Assembly (NCBI RefSeq): GCF_036227225.1
Contig: NZ_CP109444.1
Span: 7,049,501 to 7,113,500, forward strand
Origin: Streptomyces sp. NBC_01478
GTDB lineage: Bacteria > Actinomycetota > Actinomycetes > Streptomycetales > Streptomycetaceae
DNA length: 64,000 bases
Reading direction: 5' to 3'
Made by a program: the position numbers and the translations under genes. Position 1 is the first letter of the stretch; each line of letters opens with the position of its first letter. Below, in pieces: positions 168-10,697 of this stretch. Below the pieces are notes generated by a model. It was not told the origin of the DNA and made no database searches. It saw nothing but the letters and a program-made list of their open reading frames with translations.

Positions 168-3100
168 GTGGACGACTATGCGGGTCGGGTGCTCGCCGAC
201 CGCTACCGCCTGCCGCTGCCGCCCTCCGACGAGTACGAACTCACCGAGTCCCGGGCCTTCGACACCTACAGCGGGCAGGAAGTCCTGGTACGCCAGGTGC
301 CGTTGCCGGAGGTCGTCGAGGCGGAGGTGCTCGGCGAGGACGGGCTGCCCGACGGGTTCACGGCGCGTGATCGCGGGGCGCGGCGGCCGACCACGGCGCG
401 GACCGCCACACGGCGGCCCACCGATCCGGCGGTACGGCGTGCGGTCGAGGCCGCGCAGGCCGCGGCGCGGATCCCTGATCACCCCCGGCTGGACCAGGTC
501 TTCGACGTGTTCGCCGAGGGCGGTTCGCTGTGGATAGTGAGCGAACTGGTGTCCGCCCAGCCGTTGTCAGCGCTGCTCGTCGAGAAGCCGTTGTCGCCGT
601 ACCGGGCGGCCGAGGTCGCGTCCGACGTGCTGATGGCGCTGCGGGTGCTGCACGCGCACGGCTGGGTGCACCGGAACATCACCGCGCGCACGGTGCTCGT
701 CTGCGACGACGGCCGCGTGATGCTGACCGGGCTCGCGGTCGGAGCGGCGGAGGAGGCACTGTGCGGCTACGACCCGGTGCCGGTCCAGGACGGCGAGGAC
801 GGGGCCGGGGCCGAGGGGCAGCACGGTGCCGGGGCGCCGGGGCGGCAAAGTGGCGGTGCGCAGGGGCAGTTCGGCGGCCGAGCCGGTACGGGACCCGGCG
901 GCGGGGCGGTGGTACCCGCGGGGCCCGGTGCGCAGCAGGGCGGTTCCAGGCACCCCGGGGGTTCCACGGCTCCCGGTGGTTCGACGGCTCCGGCCGGCTT
1001 CATGGCTCCGGGCGGTTCGAGGGCTCCCTCAGGACCGGTGGCTCCAGGCGGTTCTCACTCTCCTTCTCCCTCAGGTCCCCTGGCCGCCGCGGCCGGCTCC
1101 ACAACTCCCGGCGGTTCTACGGTTCCTGCGGTCCCCGGTGACTCCCGCGGAGGCGGCGCCGGTGGTGGCGGGGCGATCGGCTTCGGGGGCGCGCGTGGCG
1201 GTACGGGCGCCGGTGCGGCCCCCGCTGCCGTAGGTCCCGGTGGTGTGGACCCCGAGGCCGCCCGGCGGGCGGCGATCGAGGCGCGGGCCGCCGGAGGGCT
1301 GCCCGGAGTCGGTGTGGAGGGCGGCGGCGGGAGCGGGTCCTCCGCCGCGCCGGCCCGCAGGGAAGCGGAGGCAGGCGGTGACGTCCGGGCCGCGCGGGCC
1401 GGGGCGATCGCCGCGTACCGGGCCGGCGCGCGAGCCGCTGCCCGCGTGCAGGAGACCCAGCCGGGGCGCCCTGCGCTGCCCGGTGCCCGGCCGGCGGCGG
1501 AGGACGACCGCGGCGCCGCACAGGCCAACGGTTCGGCCCAACTGCCGTACTCCGGCGGCAACGGCGTGGAACACACGGCCGGCACCACGCCCCCCGGCCA
1601 GATAGCCGACCCCTACGGCGTCCGCAACACCGCCTGGCACGACGCGACACCGCGCCCCGGCGCCCCGTCCCCGACAGACACGTTCCTCGGCCCGGACGCC
1701 CAGGCTCACGGCGGCGAGGCTCGTCCCTACGGCCCGGCCATCCCGGCTGACGGTGGCGAGGCTCGTCCCTACGACACGGCCGTTCCGGCTGACGGCGCCG
1801 ACGTCCATCCCTACGGCGGAGACACTCGTCCCTACGGTGCGGGTACCTCGGGCCGCGGCACGGACACGTATCCCTACGGTGCGGGTACCGCCGCCCATGG
1901 CACGGAGACGTCCCCCTACGGTGCGGGTCCCGCGCCCCACGGCACGGACACGTCCCCCTACGGCGTCCGCCAGCCCGCCGCCGGTCAACCCGTCGTACCC
2001 CCTGCCGGTAATCCGCACCTTCCCACTCCCGCGAACTCTCCCCGCCCCCCGGCCCGTTGGGACGAACTCGCCGCCGCCGGTGCTCCCGCCCGTCGGGGTC
2101 CCGCCACCGCGCTGGCCGCCGAGCGGGCTCGGCAGGTGCGGATGACGGTGGTGGGACCGGTCACCGAGCGGTGGGCGCCTGAGCAGGCTGTGCCGGTGCA
2201 CGAGAACTGGCAGTTGGCCGCGCCGATCGGGCCGGCCACCGATCTGTGGGCGCTGGGGGCGTTGCTCTTCCGGGCCGTGCAGGGGCATGCGCCGTATCCC
2301 GAGGAGGCGACCGCCGAGCTCGTGCAGCTCGTGTGTGCGGAGCCGCCCGCCTTCGCGGAGGAGTGCGGGCCGCTGCGGCCGGTCGTCGAGTCGCTGTTGC
2401 GGCAGGACCCGACCGAGCGGCTCGACTTCGAGGAACTGCGGGGCTGGCTGCGGTCGTTGGTGCGTTCCGCGCCCGAGCCCGAGGCCGGTACGTATGTCGT
2501 CGCCACCCCGCCCACCGACCCGCGGCGGCTGCCGATCGTGCGCAGGCGCGGCGAGTTGGTGCGCAGGCGCCGGGCCGGGCTGCCCGCGACCAGTCCGCAC
2601 GGCCGGCACAAGCGGGCCAAGCAGGAGATCGAAGGCTCGCCCCGGCGGCTGGGCCGGACTCTGCTCATCCTCATATTCCTGCTGCTGGCCGGTGCCGTCG
2701 CCTACGCCATGCTCTTCCTGCCCAAGTCCGGGGAGGACACCGGTGCCGGGCAGGGGGACAGGACGGGAGCAGCGGGGGACGTCAGCCCCGCGCCCAGCGA
2801 GTCCTCGGCCGCGGCGAGCAGCCAGCCGCAGCCCGACCAGACCTCGCCCGCGGCGGGCAACAGCCCCTCCACGTCCGCCGGTTCGACCCCGACGGGGAGC
2901 GGCTCGAACGTCGCCGACGGCTTCGTGCTGCGCAAGGACTCCGAGGGGTTCCAGATCGCCGTCGCCAAGGGCTGGACCCGCACGCCCAAGAACGGGAGCG
3001 GCCAAGTCGTCTACTCGCACGGCGACTTCGAGCTGATCGTCGTGGCGGGGCGGGACAGTGCCACGACGAACGGCAGCGATCCGATGGTGTATCAGCGGGA

Positions 3101-3365
3101 CAAGGAGCGGGAGTTGGCGCCCTACCGTGCGTCCAGTTGGGCCACGGCGACCGGGCTGCGGACCATCACGGTGGGCGGAAAGACCATGGCCGAGGGGCAG
3201 TTCACCTGGACGGACAGCCAGGGCGGCGACCTGTTCGTGCGCAACATGGCGTTCCTCATCGACGGCCGCTACCACATCGTGCAGGTACGCGGCCCGGAGG
3301 CCCAACGGGACGAGGTGACACGGCTGTACGAGCAGGCGTCGTCGACCTACCAGTACACCGGGTGA
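168..3365 (+). CDS. Hanks-type pseudokinase with very long internal insert, membrane anchored
   Basis: Protein of about 1065 aa. GTG 168 is chosen because a GGGGGAGG Shine-Dalgarno precedes it; an in-frame TTG at 138 is the alternative. The N-lobe VAIK lysine appears replaced (VLVRQV), the catalytic loop reads HRNITARTVLV (Asn for the HRD Asp) near residue 169, and DFG is replaced by LTGLA near residue 187, so catalysis is unlikely. Residues about 200-680 are a Gly/Pro/Ala-rich then YGAG-repeat insert. The kinase C-lobe resumes with ATDLWALGALLFRAVQG near residue 685. A membrane helix (LLILIFLLLAGAVAYAMLFL) lies near residues 830-850, followed by an extracytoplasmic domain at about 915-1064. 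It is first of five kinase-type genes in a row. A scaffold or allosteric partner of the active kinases is inference; no such role is shown. Confidence 0.85.
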   Translation: MDDYAGRVLADRYRLPLPPSDEYELTESRAFDTYSGQEVLVRQVPLPEVVEAEVLGEDGLPDGFTARDRGARRPTTARTATRRPTDPAVRRAVEAAQAAARIPDHPRLDQVFDVFAEGGSLWIVSELVSAQPLSALLVEKPLSPYRAAEVASDVLMALRVLHAHGWVHRNITARTVLVCDDGRVMLTGLAVGAAEEALCGYDPVPVQDGEDGAGAEGQHGAGAPGRQSGGAQGQFGGRAGTGPGGGAVVPAGPGAQQGGSRHPGGSTAPGGSTAPAGFMAPGGSRAPSGPVAPGGSHSPSPSGPLAAAAGSTTPGGSTVPAVPGDSRGGGAGGGGAIGFGGARGGTGAGAAPAAVGPGGVDPEAARRAAIEARAAGGLPGVGVEGGGGSGSSAAPARREAEAGGDVRAARAGAIAAYRAGARAAARVQETQPGRPALPGARPAAEDDRGAAQANGSAQLPYSGGNGVEHTAGTTPPGQIADPYGVRNTAWHDATPRPGAPSPTDTFLGPDAQAHGGEARPYGPAIPADGGEARPYDTAVPADGADVHPYGGDTRPYGAGTSGRGTDTYPYGAGTAAHGTETSPYGAGPAPHGTDTSPYGVRQPAAGQPVVPPAGNPHLPTPANSPRPPARWDELAAAGAPARRGPATALAAERARQVRMTVVGPVTERWAPEQAVPVHENWQLAAPIGPATDLWALGALLFRAVQGHAPYPEEATAELVQLVCAEPPAFAEECGPLRPVVESLLRQDPTERLDFEELRGWLRSLVRSAPEPEAGTYVVATPPTDPRRLPIVRRRGELVRRRRAGLPATSPHGRHKRAKQEIEGSPRRLGRTLLILIFLLLAGAVAYAMLFLPKSGEDTGAGQGDRTGAAGDVSPAPSESSAAASSQPQPDQTSPAAGNSPSTSAGSTPTGSGSNVADGFVLRKDSEGFQIAVAKGWTRTPKNGSGQVVYSHGDFELIVVAGRDSATTNGSDPMVYQRDKERELAPYRASSWATATGLRTITVGGKTMAEGQFTWTDSQGGDLFVRNMAFLIDGRYHIVQVRGPEAQRDEVTRLYEQASSTYQYTG

Positions 3366-3513
3366 CCTGCGAAGGCGGCTCGCCGTAGCCCCATGGTTCC
3401 CGTTCGGGCGCAGAAGCGACAACCGTCACAGTGCGGTCTCCGTGGTACCCCGCTGGTTCCCTGGACGAGGGCCTGTCCTTACGCTGAGCCTGTCAAGAGC
3501 ATTGCGGGGAAAC

Positions 3514-5265
3514 GTGAATCAGATGCAGGGCCTGCTCCTCGCGGGGCGCTATCGGCTGGCCGAATCGATCGGCAGCGGCGGCATGGGCCGGGTGTGGCGT
3601 GCCCACGACGAGGTGCTGCACCGGGCCGTCGCCATCAAGGAGTTGACGGCCGCGCTCTATGTGTCCGAGAGCGACCAGCCGAGACTTCTGGCGCGCACCC
3701 GCGCCGAGGCGCGCGCCGCCGCCCGGATCAACCACTCCGCCGTCGTCACCGTCCACGACGTACTCGAACACGACGGCCGCCCCTGGATCGTCATGGAGCT
3801 GGTCGAGGGCAACTCGCTGGCCGACGAGGTCAAGGAGCAGGGCCGGATCGAGCCGGCCGAGGCCGCGCGCGTCGGCGTGTGGGTGGTGCGCGCGCTGCGC
3901 GCCGCGCACGCCGCCGGCGTCCTGCACCGTGACGTGAAGCCGGGCAACGTGCTGCTCGGGCAGGACGGCCGGGTGCTGCTCACCGACTTCGGCATCGCGC
4001 AGATCGAGGGCGACAGCACCATCACGCGTACGGGAGAGGTCGTCGGCTCCGTCGACTACCTCGCCCCCGAGCGCGTCCGCGGCGCCGATCCCGGACCCTC
4101 CTCCGACCTGTGGGCGCTGGGCGCCACGCTCTACACGGCCGTCGAGGGCCGTTCGCCGTTCCGCCGCACCTCGCCGCTGTCCACCATGCAGGCCGTCGTC
4201 GAGGAGGAGGCCGGCGAGCTGCGGTACGCCGGCCCGCTCGCACCCGTCATCGCCGCGCTGCTGAACAAGGATCCCGCGCTGCGGCCCGACGCGGACCAGA
4301 CCGAGCAGATGCTCGCGGAGGCCGCCGAGGGGCGCCGGCCGCGGTCGGCGCAGGAGTGGCTGCCGACGCAGCACGTGGGCTCGCGGGCCGAGAGTTTCAC
4401 CCAGGACACGCCCGGCACGGGCGCGACGCCGTACGCGCCGGGAGCCTCGGGTGCGACTCCGTATCCGTCGGGGGCCTCGGGTGCGACGCCGTACCCGTCG
4501 GTGGCCTTGGGCGCGGTGCCCTATCCGTCGGCGACCGGGTCGGCCACCCACCAGACGCCTCTCGTCGGCGGTACGGCCATCCCGCCCGCCTCGCTCGTCC
4601 CGCCCAGGCGCCGCCGGTTCCGTTCGGTCGTCCTGGTGGTCGTCCTCGCCGCGCTCGTCGGCGGCGGTACGGCGCTGGGACTGCAGAAGTGGCACCAGGA
4701 CCGGGAGTCGGTCGGGAGCCCCGGCGCCACCACCTCGCAGAGCCCCTCGGGCGGTGCCTCGGCCTCGACCTCGGCTCCGGCGCAGGGTTCCCTTCCCGCC
4801 AACTGGGAGATCCACCACGACCCTTGGGGCTTCGACATCTCGCTCCCCAAGGGCTGGTCGCGGAAGGTCTACAGCGACAGCGGCGGCATCAAGCAGGTCG
4901 ACTACACGCCCGACAGCGGGAAGCACTTCGTCCGCATCGCCATCGACGCCACCCCGGACTTTCCCACCGCGTACGCCCACCAGTTGGACCTGGAAGTGCA
5001 GCTCCGGCGCCTGGTCGACTACAACAGGGTGACCCTGGAGGAGAACACCTACCGCGACCGTCCGGGCTCCCTCTGGGACTACACCTGGACCGCGCAGGCG
5101 AAGGACACCCCCTACCCGGGGCCGCGGCGCGCCATCGAGGAGACCTACATGTCCCGTGACGGCGTCGAGTTCGCGATCTACATGTCGTCGCCGGCCGCCG
5201 ACTGGGCCACGACGAGCGCGCAGTTCAAGTCGGTCCTGCAGACCTGGAGTCCCGGCTCGGGCTGA
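3514..5265 (+). CDS. Ser/Thr protein kinase, transmembrane, with extracytoplasmic sensor-like domain
   Basis: About 583 aa. GTG 3514 follows a GCGGGGA ribosome site; an upstream in-frame ATG at 3442 has none. The kinase domain is intact: P-loop GSGGMGRVW, VAIKEL lysine, HRDVKPGNVLL, DFGIAQ and the SVDYLAPE substrate segment. A linker with repeated GATPYPSGAS units follows, then a membrane helix (VVLVVVLAALVGGGTALGL), then a domain of about 155 aa beginning WEIHHDPWGFDISLPKGW. That domain resembles those of the neighbouring kinases. Active eukaryotic-like Ser/Thr kinases of this type phosphorylate cytoplasmic targets in response to an extracellular cue; the cue is unknown here. In S. coelicolor a corresponding five-kinase cluster has been linked to spore-wall formation (recalled, not checked). 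Confidence 0.9.
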   Translation: MNQMQGLLLAGRYRLAESIGSGGMGRVWRAHDEVLHRAVAIKELTAALYVSESDQPRLLARTRAEARAAARINHSAVVTVHDVLEHDGRPWIVMELVEGNSLADEVKEQGRIEPAEAARVGVWVVRALRAAHAAGVLHRDVKPGNVLLGQDGRVLLTDFGIAQIEGDSTITRTGEVVGSVDYLAPERVRGADPGPSSDLWALGATLYTAVEGRSPFRRTSPLSTMQAVVEEEAGELRYAGPLAPVIAALLNKDPALRPDADQTEQMLAEAAEGRRPRSAQEWLPTQHVGSRAESFTQDTPGTGATPYAPGASGATPYPSGASGATPYPSVALGAVPYPSATGSATHQTPLVGGTAIPPASLVPPRRRRFRSVVLVVVLAALVGGGTALGLQKWHQDRESVGSPGATTSQSPSGGASASTSAPAQGSLPANWEIHHDPWGFDISLPKGWSRKVYSDSGGIKQVDYTPDSGKHFVRIAIDATPDFPTAYAHQLDLEVQLRRLVDYNRVTLEENTYRDRPGSLWDYTWTAQAKDTPYPGPRRAIEETYMSRDGVEFAIYMSSPAADWATTSAQFKSVLQTWSPGSG

Positions 5266-5282: not shown

Positions 5283-6998
5283 ATGATGGTGCGCATGGGG
5301 ACCGAGGGGGACAACGTCCGGGTGATCGCCGGGCGTTACCGACTGGAGCAGCGGCTCGGGCGCGGTGGCATGGGCGTCGTGTGGCGGGCGACCGACCAAC
5401 TCCTGGGCCGGCAGGTCGCCGTCAAGGAGGTCGCCCAGGACGACACCCTCTCCGAGGAGGAGGCCCGCCGGCACCGTGACCGCACGCTGCGCGAGGCACG
5501 GGCGGTGGCGCAGTTGCGGCACCCGCACATCATCGTCGTGCACGACGTCGTCGAGCAGGACGAACGGCCGTACATCGTCATGGAGTTGATCGGTGGCGGT
5601 TCGCTCGCCGACCGGATCTCCAGTCGTGGCCCGGTCGACGCCGACGAGGCCGCGCGGATCGGGATCGCCCTGCTCGGCGCGCTGCGCACGGCACACGCGG
5701 CGGGCATCCTGCACCGGGACATCAAACCGGCGAACGTACTGCTGGAGCCGGCCACCGACCGGGCGGACTCCGGCCGAGCCGATTCCGACCGCGTCGTCCT
5801 GACCGACTTCGGCATCGCGCAGGTCGCGGGTGCCACGACGCTCAGCGAGAGCGGTGTGTTCGTCGGCTCGCCCGAGTACACCGCGCCGGAGCGGATGTCG
5901 GGCGCGCGGACCGGTCCCGCGTCCGACCTGTGGTCCCTCGGCGCGCTGCTGTGCACGGTGCTGAGCGGTGAATCGCCGTTCCGGCGCGACTCGTTGGGCG
6001 GCATCCTGCACGCGGTCGTCGTCGACGAGATCCGCCCGCCCGAGCAGGTCCGGCCACTGCTTCCCGTCGTACGAGGGCTGCTCGAGCGCGATCCGGAACG
6101 GCGGCTGGGGGCGGCGGAGGCGGAGCGGATGCTGCGGGCCTTCCTGGAGACCGGGCGCACGCCGGGCGCCGCGCCTTCGGACCGTACGGCGCACCCGGCG
6201 CCGGGCTACACACCGACCCAACGGGACGTGCCGAAAAGGCGGTTGGCCACCCAGGCGGCACCGCAGGACCCCGCGCACTCCGGGACGGCGGAGCAGCAGT
6301 CGCCGCCCCGGCGTTCCACGCGCGGTGTGCTCGTGGCGGCGTTGCTGGTCGCGGCGATGGCGGGGGCCGGAGTGTCGGCCGCCGCGCTCCTGATGCGAGG
6401 GGACGGCGCCGGGGGCGCCGCCGCGCCGGTGAGTTCGGCGCCGTCGACGTCCACGAGTGCCGGTACCTCGGCACCACCGTCCTCGACCCCCTCGAAGAGT
6501 TCCCCCACCCCCTCGAAGAGCCCCGACACCCCCTCGAAGAGTCCCAACACCCCTACCGCGCCCTCCGGTTACCGCATCGCCCACGACCCCGACGGCTTCG
6601 CCCTCGCCGTACCGGAGGACTTCGTGCGCGTACCGCAGGGTGAGCGCATCTTCTACATGTCGCCGGGGGAGACCTTCCGCCTGGGCATCAAGATGACCGA
6701 CCCCGAAACGGGCGGCCCGCTCGCGGTGATGAAGAGCGCGGCGGCCGAGGGGGCGGACACGAACCCCGGTTACCACGACGGCAAGGTCACCGACACCACG
6801 CACTACGGACACCCCGCCGCGCTCTGGGAGTTCAGTTGGAACGGCTTCAGCACGGCGGAGGGGCCCCGGCACACGTACGACATGTGCTGGGAGGAGGACG
6901 GCCGGATGTACGACGTGTGGGTGTCGGCGCCGGTCGGGAAGGTGCGGGAGGCGAAGGAGTACTTCGACGTCGCGCTGGACACGTTCGGACCGGCATAA
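5283..6998 (+). CDS. Ser/Thr protein kinase, transmembrane
   Basis: Up to 571 aa. The start is uncertain: ATGs at 5283, 5286 and 5295 lack a clear ribosome site, while GTG 5322 has GAGGGGG 11 nt upstream and would place the kinase domain at the very N-terminus. Motifs are complete: GRGGMGVVW, VAVKEV, HRDIKPANVLL, DFGIAQ. A short Asp/Arg/Ser-rich insert (TDRADSGRADSDR) sits between the HRD and DFG segments. Then come a Pro-rich tail, a membrane helix (GVLVAALLVAAMAGAGVSAAALL), a PSKS-repeat stalk, and an extracytoplasmic domain starting YRIAHDPDGFALAVPEDF. It is 17 nt downstream of the preceding kinase gene, so probably cotranscribed. Confidence 0.88.
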   Translation: MMVRMGTEGDNVRVIAGRYRLEQRLGRGGMGVVWRATDQLLGRQVAVKEVAQDDTLSEEEARRHRDRTLREARAVAQLRHPHIIVVHDVVEQDERPYIVMELIGGGSLADRISSRGPVDADEAARIGIALLGALRTAHAAGILHRDIKPANVLLEPATDRADSGRADSDRVVLTDFGIAQVAGATTLSESGVFVGSPEYTAPERMSGARTGPASDLWSLGALLCTVLSGESPFRRDSLGGILHAVVVDEIRPPEQVRPLLPVVRGLLERDPERRLGAAEAERMLRAFLETGRTPGAAPSDRTAHPAPGYTPTQRDVPKRRLATQAAPQDPAHSGTAEQQSPPRRSTRGVLVAALLVAAMAGAGVSAAALLMRGDGAGGAAAPVSSAPSTSTSAGTSAPPSSTPSKSSPTPSKSPDTPSKSPNTPTAPSGYRIAHDPDGFALAVPEDFVRVPQGERIFYMSPGETFRLGIKMTDPETGGPLAVMKSAAAEGADTNPGYHDGKVTDTTHYGHPAALWEFSWNGFSTAEGPRHTYDMCWEEDGRMYDVWVSAPVGKVREAKEYFDVALDTFGPA

Positions 6999-7090
6999 AA
7001 GGGAGATAGGTGACCGTTCGAGTCACGGGTGTGTGACCGGAAAGCATTCCCTGTGGATACCGGAGCGGTCGCCGCGATATGGATGGACGT

Positions 7091-8812
7091 ATGAGCAGCG
7101 ACGGGGGAGCCCGACACGGAGCCGACGAGCCGACGAGTTTCGCTCTGCAACCACCGGCTTTGCAGCCATCGGCTCCGCAATCACCGGCTTTGCAGCCATC
7201 GGCTCCGCAATCACCGGCTTTGCAGCCATCGGCTCCGCAGCCGCCGAACCCGCGCACGGCCGTGCCGGTGCAGGTGCCGCACCCGGACAATCCCTACGCG
7301 ACGCCCGCCCCGGCGCCCGACCCCGGCACCGGGCGGCTCATAGCCGAGCGGTACCGGCTGCTCGGCAAGCTCGGGCACGGCGGGATGGGCACGGTGTGGC
7401 GCGCCAAGGACGAGACGGTGGACCGCGAGGTCGCCGTCAAGGAACCGCGCGTCCCGGATCATCTTCCCGAACGCGAACGTGCCAACGCTTTCGAGCGGAT
7501 GCGCCGCGAGGCCCGCGCGGCGGCCCGGCTCGACCACCCGGCCGTCGTGAACGTGCACGACGTGGCCGTCGTCGACGGTCAGCCGTGGATCGTGATGGAA
7601 CTGGTGACCGGCCGCTCGCTGGGCGACGCGTTGCAGGAGGGCACCCTCGACGCACGCGACGCGGCCCGGATCGGCCTTCAGGTGCTCGGCGCGCTGGAGG
7701 CCGCGCACGCGGCGGGCGTCCTGCACCGTGACGTCAAGCCGGACAACGTCCTGCTGGGCCGCTACGACCGGGTCGTCCTGACCGACTTCGGCATCGCCCA
7801 GATCGAGGGCGAGACGAACCTGACGGACACCGGCGGTTTCGTCGGCTCGCCCGAATACATCGCGCCGGAACGGGTGTTGGGCCAACGCCCCGGCCCCGCC
7901 TCCGACCTCTGGTCCCTCGGTGTGGTCCTGTACGCGGCGACGGAGGGCGTCTCGCCGTTCCGCCGCAGCAACACCCCCGCCACCCTCCAGTCGGTCCTCA
8001 ACGCCGCGCCCGCACCGCCGACTTCGGCGCCGGGCCCGCTCGCCGCACTCATCACCGGCCTGCTGGCCAAGGACCCGTCGAGCCGCCCGAACGCGGCCCA
8101 GGTGCGTGCCGTACTCGAATCGGTGGCGAACCCGCCCGCGCCGTCCTCGACGCAGGAGGTGCGGTACGTCGAAAGACCCGGCGGAAGACGCCGGCCCGGC
8201 CGCAAGACGTGGTTCGGGCTCGGTGCCGTGGTCGTCGCGGCGGCGGTGGCAGCCGCGTACGTGGTGTTCGGCAACCCGTTCGCGGGGCCGCTGCCGCACG
8301 GCTGGGCGAAGCATCACGTGTCCGATGTGGCCGCGACGCTCGCCGTCCCGGCCGCGTACCAGCGGACCACCCCCGACCGCACTTCGGACAAGAGCCACTG
8401 GGTCACGTACACCGATCCGAGCGGCAGCATCTGGATCTTCCTGAGCCTCGACAAGAAGTCCGAGGACACCAACGGCTACATCAAGGACTCGGCGGCGGCC
8501 GAAATGTACTCGGACAACGGCGACTTCAAGACCAGCGGCAGTGTCGACCTCGACATGGGCAAGGCCACGGAGACCGTCCCGAAGCCGACCGGCACGTACC
8601 AGGGCCGACCGTCGGCCGAGAATACGGTCACCTACGACTCCGACGACACCCAGAACCCCCTCCCGCGCGAGCTGAGGATCCTCTACTACAAGACCTCCGC
8701 CGGCGACATGTACCGGCTCATCGTCAGCTACCCGGGCAAGGGCGACTTCACGGCCCGCGGCCGCGAGGTGGCGCGGGCGGCGATCGCGAACCTGGACATC
8801 GACACGCTGTGA
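7091..8812 (+). CDS. Ser/Thr protein kinase, transmembrane, with N-terminal repeat tail
   Basis: 573 aa from ATG 7091 (ATG 7079 is in frame but less likely). Unlike its neighbours it carries about 85 residues before the kinase domain, including a triplicated ten-residue ALQPSAPQSP unit, followed by GHGGMGTVW, VAVKEPR, HRDVKPDNVLL and DFGIAQ. After a single helix (WFGLGAVVVAAAVAAAYVVFG), an extracytoplasmic domain starts WAKHHVSDVAATLAVPAAY. All catalytic residues are present. Its stop codon overlaps the GTG start of the next small gene (GTGA), indicating translational coupling. Substrates and signal are unknown. Confidence 0.9.
   Translation: MSSDGGARHGADEPTSFALQPPALQPSAPQSPALQPSAPQSPALQPSAPQPPNPRTAVPVQVPHPDNPYATPAPAPDPGTGRLIAERYRLLGKLGHGGMGTVWRAKDETVDREVAVKEPRVPDHLPERERANAFERMRREARAAARLDHPAVVNVHDVAVVDGQPWIVMELVTGRSLGDALQEGTLDARDAARIGLQVLGALEAAHAAGVLHRDVKPDNVLLGRYDRVVLTDFGIAQIEGETNLTDTGGFVGSPEYIAPERVLGQRPGPASDLWSLGVVLYAATEGVSPFRRSNTPATLQSVLNAAPAPPTSAPGPLAALITGLLAKDPSSRPNAAQVRAVLESVANPPAPSSTQEVRYVERPGGRRRPGRKTWFGLGAVVVAAAVAAAYVVFGNPFAGPLPHGWAKHHVSDVAATLAVPAAYQRTTPDRTSDKSHWVTYTDPSGSIWIFLSLDKKSEDTNGYIKDSAAAEMYSDNGDFKTSGSVDLDMGKATETVPKPTGTYQGRPSAENTVTYDSDDTQNPLPRELRILYYKTSAGDMYRLIVSYPGKGDFTARGREVARAAIANLDIDTL
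7151..7240 (+). repeat. Three tandem 30-bp repeats inside a kinase gene
   Basis: Three nearly identical 30-bp units at 7151-7180, 7181-7210 and 7211-7240, differing only at the first two bases of unit one and the last base of unit three. Being a multiple of three, they preserve frame and encode repeated ALQPSAPQSP. The near identity suggests recent slippage expansion, so copy number may vary between strains. Confidence 0.95.
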
Positions 8813-9225
8813 GCGGCGGTACGGACGCCGAGCTCGCGGTCATGAGCGTGCGCGCGCTCGGCGACCGCGGTCTGCCGCGCGACGTGATCGACGTGTACGC
8901 CGCCCGCCACCTCTACTCCGCCGTGGAACTGGAGCAGTTGGGCCTGCGCGACGGCGGAGCGGACTTCGACCTCTTCGGGCTGCGGGACCGGTTGGAGAGC
9001 GTGGTCTGGGTGAGCGACGAGGAGTTCACGGCCCACGGACTCGATGCGCGGGAGATCGCGGAACTGCGGCGGTGGGCCCTGGAGTGGGAGTCCGACTTGG
9101 GGCTGCGGCTCGCCGAGGAGTACGCGGACGAGCCGGATCCCGATGAATGCCAAGTTGCGGCACCTCAGAGGGAGTTGGACGCGCGTCGACAAGGCCGTAC
9201 CCGGCACGGTACTGATGGGGCATGA
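8809..9225 (+). CDS. Small protein of unknown function between two kinase genes
   Basis: 138 aa, predicted soluble, with no signal peptide or membrane helix. GTG 8809 overlaps the preceding kinase stop (GTGA), and its own stop overlaps the ATG of the next kinase (ATGA at 9222-9225), so all three are probably translated as a coupled unit. It is rich in Leu/Glu/Asp/Arg with predicted helical stretches (ALGDRGLPRDVIDVY, LRRWALEWESDLGLRLAEEY). An alternative start is ATG 8842. I do not recognise the family. Its position suggests a partner or regulator of the flanking kinases (inference). Confidence 0.75.
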   Translation: MSGGTDAELAVMSVRALGDRGLPRDVIDVYAARHLYSAVELEQLGLRDGGADFDLFGLRDRLESVVWVSDEEFTAHGLDAREIAELRRWALEWESDLGLRLAEEYADEPDPDECQVAAPQRELDARRQGRTRHGTDGA

Positions 9226-10697
9226 GCGAAGTCGGCGAACAGGTGCGCGACGGACGGCTGGTCGGCGGTCGCTACCGGCTGCTCGAACGGATCGGCTCCG
9301 GCGGCATGGGCACCGTATGGCGCGCGTTCGACGAACTCGTGGACCGCGAAGTCGCCGTCAAACAGCCGCGGTTGCCCGGCTACCCGGAGGACGAGGAGTT
9401 CCAGCGCGCCGCCCACCGGCTCTACCGCGAGGCCCGCGCCGCCGCCCGCGTCGACCATCCCTCCGCCGTGGCCATCCACGATGTCGTCATCGAGGACGAA
9501 CTCCCGTGGATCGTCATGGAGTTGGTCCGCGGCGAGTCCCTGCACGAACTGCTCGCGCGTGGCCCCCTCGCCCCAGCCGAGGCCGCCCGCATCGGCCTCG
9601 CCGTCCTCGGCGCCCTGCGCGCCGCGCACGCCGTGGGGATAGTGCACCGCGATGTGAAACCCGCCAACGTCCTGCTCGGTCCCCACGACCGCGTCGTCCT
9701 CACCGACTTCGGCATCGCGCACATCCAGGGCGAGGAATCCCTCACCGCCAGCGGGGAGTTCGTGGGTTCGCTCGAATTCATCGCCCCCGAGCGGATGTCG
9801 GGCACGGGCGCGGGCCCGTCCTCCGACCTGTGGTCCCTGGGCGTCCTCCTGTACGCGGCCGTCGAAGGCGCGTCCCCTTTCCGCCGTACGACCGTGGAGT
9901 CCACCCTCGGCGCCATCCTCGCCGGCGACCCACCCGAGCCGACCCGGTCGGGGCCTCTCGCGCCGCTGGTCCTACGGCTGTTGGCGCGGGAGCCGGAGTC
10001 GCGGCCGGAGGCGGAGGAGGTCGGCGTGGTACTGGAGGCGGTGGCCGCGGGGAAGGACGTACCGGAGCCGCCGCTCAGCGTCCAGGACGCGGAGCCCGAG
10101 GGCGCCTCGGCTGCGGCCGCCAACGACCCTGTGCCGCAGCCCGAGTTGGAGTCCGCGCCCAAGTCCCGCCGCCCCCGCCACCGTTCGCTTCTCATCACCC
10201 TCGGGGTACTCCTCCTGGCGGGTCTGGTCTTCGGCACCGTCCTGGAGAACGTCCTCGACAAGGACTCCTGGACCGCTCACCGGCGGGAGGGCATGAACGC
10301 GGTCCTCTCCCTCCCCTCCCAGTACCGGCTTCTCCGGACACAGGCGGCATCCGGCAGCCGTACCGTCACCTACGGCACCGGCGCACTGCGCGTCCGCCTC
10401 ACGGAATGGGACAAGGCCCCCGGCTCACCTCTCACCGAGGCCCAGTCCTGGGGCGAGGACACCTCCGACCCCCGCTACACGCGCACCAGCTTCCACGGGA
10501 ACAAGGACGCCGTCCTGGCCGACACCACCTACGACCAGTCGGGCGTCCTCACCCGCGCCATGGCCCTGGTCATCCGCACCGCCGGTCACCGCATGTACGA
10601 ACTGCGCGTGGACATGCCCAAGGGCACCCCGGACGAGAAGAAGGGCACGGCCCTCTTCAAGGGCGCCCGCGACCGGATCACCCTCACGGAAAACTGA
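9222..10697 (+). CDS. Ser/Thr protein kinase, transmembrane
   Basis: 491 aa from ATG 9222, which overlaps the previous stop. The kinase domain has GSGGMGTVW, VAVKQPR, HRDVKPANVLL, DFGIAH and the EFIAPE segment, all intact. A helix (LLITLGVLLLAGLVFGTVL) near residue 330 leads to an extracytoplasmic domain of about 145 aa starting WTAHRREGMNAVLSLPSQY, related in layout to those of the upstream kinases. It is last in the kinase run. No terminator was recognised directly after it; a 16-bp palindrome at 10745 follows. Confidence 0.9.
   Translation: MSEVGEQVRDGRLVGGRYRLLERIGSGGMGTVWRAFDELVDREVAVKQPRLPGYPEDEEFQRAAHRLYREARAAARVDHPSAVAIHDVVIEDELPWIVMELVRGESLHELLARGPLAPAEAARIGLAVLGALRAAHAVGIVHRDVKPANVLLGPHDRVVLTDFGIAHIQGEESLTASGEFVGSLEFIAPERMSGTGAGPSSDLWSLGVLLYAAVEGASPFRRTTVESTLGAILAGDPPEPTRSGPLAPLVLRLLAREPESRPEAEEVGVVLEAVAAGKDVPEPPLSVQDAEPEGASAAAANDPVPQPELESAPKSRRPRHRSLLITLGVLLLAGLVFGTVLENVLDKDSWTAHRREGMNAVLSLPSQYRLLRTQAASGSRTVTYGTGALRVRLTEWDKAPGSPLTEAQSWGEDTSDPRYTRTSFHGNKDAVLADTTYDQSGVLTRAMALVIRTAGHRMYELRVDMPKGTPDEKKGTALFKGARDRITLTEN

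Follow-up and report, generated by a model that had tools for sequence, protein, structure and literature searches.

Introduction

The described pseudokinase family closest to the protein studied here is ActPs2 (O'Boyle et al. 2025, PMC12599244). In ActPs2 the beta3 Lys is changed to Arg and HRD to HRN, with DFG being deleted in most members, and the proteins carry a 32-residue insertion before alphaC together with, in about 90% of members, a 250-residue extension of the activation loop. That extension was modelled as disordered and its significance called unclear, with transmembrane regions commonly following it, and in an AlphaFold3 model of an ActPs2 protein R42 and R177 touch the phosphates of adenosine triphosphate (ATP). 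According to a review, a job is known for only a few bacterial pseudokinases. Here we analyze a gene for a protein of this kind, found near the start of a stretch of 64 000 nucleotides from Streptomyces sp. NBC_01478 (NZ_CP109444.1, positions 7 049 501 to 7 113 500), hereafter called the window, with its first base being C1:7049501 of the genome.

A second point of comparison is the spore-wall kinase cluster SCO4775-4779 of Streptomyces coelicolor, in which SCO4776 was listed as a serine/threonine kinase expressed at all stages (Ladwig et al. 2015, PMC4416010) and is the sole cluster gene lacking a pka name. An extra copy of SCO4776 gave aberrant, vancomycin-sensitive spores, interpreted in that study as an imbalance in kinase activity. 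Compared with S. lividans, S. coelicolor was furthermore reported to contain more of four of the five cluster proteins, PkaI being undetected (PMC9739823). Nowhere in the literature found by the searches made was SCO4776 called a pseudokinase.

Results

Loss of the catalytic residues in a retained kinase core

An original prediction, made from the letters of the window, had presented the gene as a pseudokinase standing at the head of a run of four active kinases, of which the dead kinase was upheld while the place at the head was not, as described further below. The catalytic Lys, the HRD Asp and the DFG Asp of active Hanks-type Ser/Thr kinases were all absent from the aligned rows, in agreement with the predicted change of all three landmarks, and no catalytic Lys/Asp/Asp set, which the prediction had named as evidence to the contrary, was found in those rows. 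Only the reading of DFG as LTG had to be corrected, being placed two residues too early (Table 1). Alignment with the active kinases of the cluster and with orthologues also gave Ala95 in place of the alphaC Glu, with Thr172 and Thr175 in place of the catalytic-loop Lys and Asn, respectively, and a Gly-rich loop was lacking when compared to the active kinases of the cluster. These comparisons support that the protein is a pseudokinase.

Among the 70 Streptomyces rows of our main alignment (A1), position 42 was Arg in 69, Thr in one and Lys in none, while A95, N170, T172, T175, R183 and G188 were found in all 70. This alignment omits 11 of the 80 Streptomyces loci that were picked by the pseudokinase (L005, L007, L011, L019, L020, L045, L066, L069, L070, L072 and L073), because of contig ends and broken or odd frames; a 72-row alignment omits nine of the same 11 (all except L007 and L069). 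A further alignment (A2) of 56 rows combined 42 of the 70 Streptomyces rows with 12 of the 14 loci from the sister genus g2 (L112 and L118 being left out) and rows from two more genera, g3 and g4. The Asn of HRN or HGN and the Gly at the DFG position were common to all 56 rows, with position 42 being Asp or Glu in the 12 g2 rows and Phe in g4. Arg42 was present in 41 and Arg183 (window 714-716) in all 42 of the Streptomyces rows of A2, and both were kept in g3 and both missing in g4 and in 12 of 12 g2 rows. Being kept or lost jointly across four genera, these two arginines are possibly a ligand pair of one branch. We also noted that within A2 Cys199 (window 762-764, in EALCG just before the insert) is retained in 41 of the 42 Streptomyces rows and without exception in g2, g3 and g4.

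The kinase core is nonetheless retained on both sides of the insert, as had been proposed for the C-lobe, since PF00069 (Pfam) was found as two stretches (whole-protein E 7.7e-13) and residues 103-189 and 685-757 aligned separately with solved kinases of the PDB using phmmer. By a hand count, R42 and A95 are 53 residues apart, compared to 23 between Lys and Glu in the first downstream kinase K1. The original prediction had regarded a failure of the two lobes to fold together as counting against it; both lobes were predicted to fold as one kinase domain in a short-insert orthologue, used instead of the suggested joined residues 1-210 and 680-770 of the window protein, while AlphaFold applied to the complete window protein gave a poor model of the kinase part. 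The transmembrane helix (residues 828-850) and ectodomain (residues 916-1065) behind the C-lobe had not been mentioned in that prediction. A related ectodomain is carried by the kinase that comes next in the cluster.

A long insert that is younger than the catalytic losses

The insert had been described as some 480 residues long, which holds for the 480 residues that lie between G188 and W669. The distance from DFG to APE in active kinases of the fetched loci (n=271) is however 17-29, with a median of 26, so the net insertion is about 450. Its location was fixed among the 70 Streptomyces rows of A1, where its length varied from 113 to 534 residues. We also counted the residues separating HxN from the RW of the APE motif, finding 500 in the window protein, 133-554 in the 70 rows and 220-547 in 31 loci picked by U, the active kinase directly upstream. 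In the sister genus g2, with the motif HGN, this distance was exactly 69 in all 13 that could be read of the 14 loci, and it was 56 in g4 and 102 in g3. As the motifs are dead also in these relatives, the catalytic loss is older than the long insert, and the notion that the insert killed the kinase was thereby ruled out. Growth of the insert appears graded, with only 113 residues in L077 and 131 residues in L043.

The insert is in most parts poorly conserved. The YGAG-type repeats pointed out in the original prediction are real 42-bp tandem repeats, although they fall in the worst-aligning and most variable part, and tandem repeats of 18-24 bp also occur in parts of the insert. The suggested comparison of insert position and insert sequence thus gave a constant position and a varying length, together with one conserved island, around which the sequence hardly aligns. 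This island 2 (RAGAIAAYRAG), scored as were the others by regular expression, was found in 66 of the 70 Streptomyces rows and in 27 of 32 sequences from U-picked loci, but in none of nine from outside Streptomyces. Island 1 was weaker (44/70 and 11/32), as was island 3, scored as DPYG (52/70 and 17/32). The 32 sequences were those above 600 residues read by script as the pseudokinase, with L134 and four cut sequences uncounted and the partly masked L152 scored as lacking the islands. L043 keeps island 2 in spite of its 131-residue insert, while two other short-insert Streptomyces orthologues, L089 (HxN-to-RW distance 143) and L077, have no island 2.

Spread and constraint of the gene

Of 7979 database proteins scored, 2690 matched at E <= 1e-20, the lower of which may be other kinases; the best 120 align with the pseudokinase over the whole core. 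The gene was found in 222 of 227 Streptomyces genomes, as obtained by subtraction from a sample spread evenly over the order, with the own genome included, and in four of the five genomes lacking it a contig ended within 0.7 kb downstream of the best kinase match. In g2, all 14 genomes searched had the gene. At the level of the order, 10 genomes of family f3 gave matches with E of about 1e-16 to 1e-18, and the two loci read of the ten (L093 and L094) encode active kinases. In a kinase-domain tree, 71 pseudokinases formed one clade with support 1.0 on a long branch.

A column entered the core identities only when more than 60% of the rows had a residue there, which excluded the variable loops. 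In Streptomyces loci picked by U the core identity was 0.870 for the pseudokinase versus 0.841 for U itself (31 loci), and 0.890 versus 0.722 for the next kinase (26 loci). Within the 80 pseudokinase-picked loci, a biased set of which 71 pseudokinases were used, its core identity exceeded that of all five neighbours, at 0.896 compared to 0.871 for U. Orthologues in L087 and L103 (G195) seem to be split between frames, and in L069 the N-terminal half runs directly into an aldehyde dehydrogenase region; both cases may be either assembly or sequencing errors or real changes.

A steady pair with the upstream kinase

Instead of heading the kinase run, the pseudokinase stands second, behind the active kinase U, which carries HRDVKPSN and DFG and ends 164 bp ahead of the pseudokinase start. 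In 78 of the 80 Streptomyces loci picked by the pseudokinase, U was the next upstream kinase, with a median gap of 164 bp and gaps of 526-1471 bp in three loci; as to the two exceptions, L045 has U but a cut pseudokinase, and in L035 the contig starts too near. Conversely, 40 of 41 Streptomyces genomes had U, and the pseudokinase followed it in 37 of 39 fetched U-picked loci (that of the window being excluded), the other two stopping at contig ends. U was also seen in eight of nine pseudokinase-picked loci from three other genera.

The downstream kinases, which had been proposed as the companions, vary. Counting up to four within the fetched flank of 79 loci and the window, we found none in eight loci, one in 12, two in 10, three in 38 and four in 12. 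Of the eight loci without any, six lie on contigs that break off within the pseudokinase gene and L069 is odd in frame, leaving L074 as the only clean zero in this set, while the U-picked loci L154-L157 and L160 had no downstream kinase over about 9 kb. The steady pair is hence U and the pseudokinase, and the downstream kinase run is the variable part.

Correspondence to SCO4776

The PkaI (SCO4778) phosphopeptides reported from S. coelicolor are VLTRGPVDAVEAAR and FGVAQVAGATTLTE (PMC4416010). In locus L036, the second gene past the pseudokinase contains FGVAQVAGATTLTE exactly and VLTRGPVDAVEAAR with one mismatch, and the locus has five kinases in an arrangement similar to SCO4775-4779, with an aldehyde dehydrogenase behind them. 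With the PkaI peptides two genes downstream in such a five-kinase layout, the pseudokinase occupies the SCO4776 place, and the order kinase, pseudokinase, PkaD and PkaI was present as expected for a SCO4776 orthologue. In the window, the K2 peptides are similar to those of PkaI, with 2 and 4 mismatches (FGIAQVAGATTLSE). The window gene is thus, by synteny, the SCO4776 orthologue, the S. coelicolor protein being represented here by relatives. One of these, P0142 of S. anthocyanicus, a species that we take to be very close to strain A3(2), carries the same catalytic-residue changes. Reading the gene as pkaH (SCO4775) was discarded, since U holds that position.

Table 1. Features of the pseudokinase gene and its kinase neighbours (positions in the window)
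Feature	Position	Strand	Remarks
Upstream active kinase U, stop codon	1..3	+	U = C1:7046900-7049503 = L085:2400-5003; PkaH/SCO4775 position
ActPs2-type pseudokinase open reading frame, SCO4776 orthologue by synteny	168..3365	+	1065 residues, start codon GTG
N-lobe up to activation-segment start	168..782	+	residues 1-205
beta3 (VAIK) Lys to Arg42	291..293	+	alignment with neighbouring active kinases and orthologues
Extra ~30 residues between beta3 and alphaC, sequence variable	315..425	+	about residues 50-86
HRD to HRN	669..677	+	residues 168-170
DFG positions, G188-L189-A190	729..737	+	alignment
Gly/Ala/Pro-rich insert	780..2093	+	residues 205-642; predicted local distance difference test (pLDDT) mostly under 50 (AlphaFold)
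Island 1, DPEAARRAAIEARAAGGLPG, partly conserved	1248..1307	+	residues 361-380; modelled helix 362-374, low confidence
Island 2, DVRAARAGAIAAYRAGARAAARVQE, best conserved island	1380..1457	+	residues 405-430; modelled helix 407-418, low confidence
Island 3, PGQIADPYGVRNTAWHDATPR, partly conserved	1590..1652	+	residues 475-495
In-frame 42-bp (14-residue) tandem repeats, YGAG type	1681..1817, 1830..1963	+	repeat analysis, alignment
Activation-segment end, RGPATALAAERARQVRM...RWAPE	2094..2183	+	APE motif 2175-2183
C-lobe	2145..2477	+	residues 660-770
Single transmembrane helix	2649..2717	+	residues 828-850, after C-lobe
Ectodomain, predicted PsbP/Mog1/LpqN-like fold	2913..3362	+	residues 916-1065
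Active kinase K1	3442..5265	+	PkaD/SCO4777 position
Active kinase K2	5283..6998	+	PkaI/SCO4778 position; similar activation-loop peptide
Active kinase K3	7079..8812	+	PkaJ/SCO4779 position
Active kinase K4	9222..10697	+	outside five-gene S. coelicolor layout

Two further observations concern the neighbours: in U, a Gly/Ala/Ser-rich linker about 300 residues long lies ahead of the transmembrane helix, and at the N-terminus of K3 (window 7079-7300) tandem repeats of ALQPSAPQSP type precede the kinase domain.

Discussion

We propose, at about even chances, that this membrane-spanning ActPs2 pseudokinase serves its neighbour kinase U as a partner or scaffold that senses the envelope and does not itself catalyze, a reading that we favour because of the steady pairing and the sequence constraint. 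The dead kinase domain would bind U, and perhaps other kinases of SCO4775-4779 or spore-wall proteins, thereby acting as an allosteric regulator or scaffold, while the outer domains of the pseudokinase and its neighbours would respond to one shared signal from the envelope. The insert could be a flexible arm on which the helix-like island RAGAIAAYRAG docks a partner, with the repeats merely setting the length of the arm. An effect of SCO4776 dosage would in that case come from stoichiometry, with no part played by phosphorylation. A bolder version, where the loop freed from catalysis became a long tether with a helical docking motif that joins U and spore-wall proteins under a shared outer sensor, with the second-copy spore defects being an effect of scaffold dosage, we put forward as tentative and rather doubtful.

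Several observations weigh against a partnership with U. The five cluster genes of S. coelicolor were reported to be transcribed separately, and pkaH was not detected by reverse-transcription PCR while SCO4776 was constant (PMC4416010); in another data set pkaH was high. As partners of PkaI in two-hybrid screens, the running text of the publication lists PkaA and PkaD and not SCO4776. Separate transcription and unequal expression argue for caution about a partner of U. A shared gene neighbourhood is no proof of contact, and as only kinase reading frames on the same strand were listed, small genes may exist between U and the pseudokinase. Furthermore, the profile match of the ectodomain to U itself was weak (65%), and the g2 and g4 orthologues end soon after the transmembrane helix, having no ectodomain. 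Constraint also differs outside Streptomyces: in g2 the core identity of the pseudokinase was 0.680 compared to 0.812 for U (6 loci, 15 pairs) and 0.675 compared to 0.863 for the next kinase (7 loci), and across genera it was 0.504 versus 0.704 for U. With the order of identities being reversed there, the strong constraint is a feature of Streptomyces.

The pseudokinase could instead scaffold spore-wall (SSSC) proteins, or be a decoy for them, without the upstream kinase, the gene order being merely inherited. This would suit the cluster genetics, which concern spore-wall integrity and in which a second copy of SCO4776 alone is disturbing (PMC4416010), but the pseudokinase stays paired with U where the downstream kinases change, and this pairing is found also in three other genera; we find such a role unlikely, though worth keeping in mind. 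The insert could alternatively be neutral filler, with slippage of repeats having enlarged a loop freed from phosphorylation and with only the core being of importance. The greater age of the catalytic losses, the tandem repeats, the variable length with mostly poor conservation, and the short inserts of L089 and L077 all agree with this view, while the retention of island 2 in most Streptomyces sequences, including L043, and its low-confidence helix prediction speak against it, and we therefore give it an appreciable chance that still falls short of even. Decay of a once active kinase into a pseudogene, as the lost residues and the low-complexity insert might suggest, has next to no probability and was ruled out by the conservation and wide presence of the gene, with a mean core identity of 0.87-0.90 within Streptomyces that is higher than that of the active neighbours and with most of the few absences lying beside contig ends.

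Nucleotide binding, and perhaps activity, through Arg42 and a second arginine was suggested by those who described ActPs2, on the basis of the ATP model in which R42 and R177 lie at the phosphates (PMC12599244), and R177 possibly equals Arg183 here. The joint presence or loss of Arg42 and Arg183 fits with residues that work together. Both are however missing in the g2 and g4 orthologues, so that nucleotide binding through them would be no common property, and the Gly-rich loop, the metal-binding Asp and the catalytic Asp are all absent; we regard such a function as improbable, and if R177 is Arg183 nucleotide binding would be limited to a single branch.

Whichever role applies, the absence of catalytic residues in the SCO4776 family means that the phenotype ascribed to kinase imbalance requires another cause, and the published interpretation of the second SCO4776 copy is untenable in its simple form. 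The results also connect ActPs2, which has a name but has hardly been studied, with a locus of a model organism where genetics can be done, and the natural short-insert orthologues offer a clean comparison for the effect of a giant activation-loop insert.

Comparing with known systems, the pseudokinase kind as such is already published (PMC12599244) and its bare observation is not new. The window protein belongs to ActPs2 as judged from the features described for that family: it has Arg for the beta3 Lys, Asn for the HRD Asp, a loss of DFG, an insertion of ~30 residues between beta3 and alphaC compared to about 32 in the family, a large disordered extension of the activation loop, a transmembrane helix behind the kinase domain and an actinobacterial origin. 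It differs in that its DFG positions align ungapped (GLA), while a deletion is given for most members, and in that its extension is about 450 residues compared to about 250. The window protein further differs from the family description in having an ectodomain, an island of conserved sequence in its insert, a gene that constantly accompanies it and relatives whose inserts are short. Within the literature searched, four points are new: the correspondence to SCO4776 with the genetics published for that gene, the constant pairing with one kinase, the loss of catalysis before the insert grew long, and the island. SCO4776 shares the second place in the cluster, ahead of PkaD and PkaI (PMC4416010), where it is treated as a serine/threonine kinase, whereas our sequence family lacks the catalytic residues.

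MviN (ActPs3) of Mycobacterium tuberculosis, which has a role in envelope control, is likewise a membrane protein with a dead kinase domain, although its degenerate motifs are VALT and Lsid, compared to VLVR and HRNIT in the window protein. The same genome encodes a separate 593-residue pseudokinase-like protein (L120:1325-3103, C1:5950801-5955500), residues 79-315 of which match PDB 3otv/3oun, presumably chains of MviN, and which has a further C-terminal domain. These differing motifs and this separate protein ruled out the window protein as the MviN orthologue; MviN chains were also not among the best 60 of 633 (P0001) and 689 (P0122) PDB matches, which by itself is no proof. EssB/YukC of type VII secretion, finally, resembles the window protein in principle only, as a membrane pseudokinase working without catalysis, but it has a reduced activation loop and belongs to Firmicutes.

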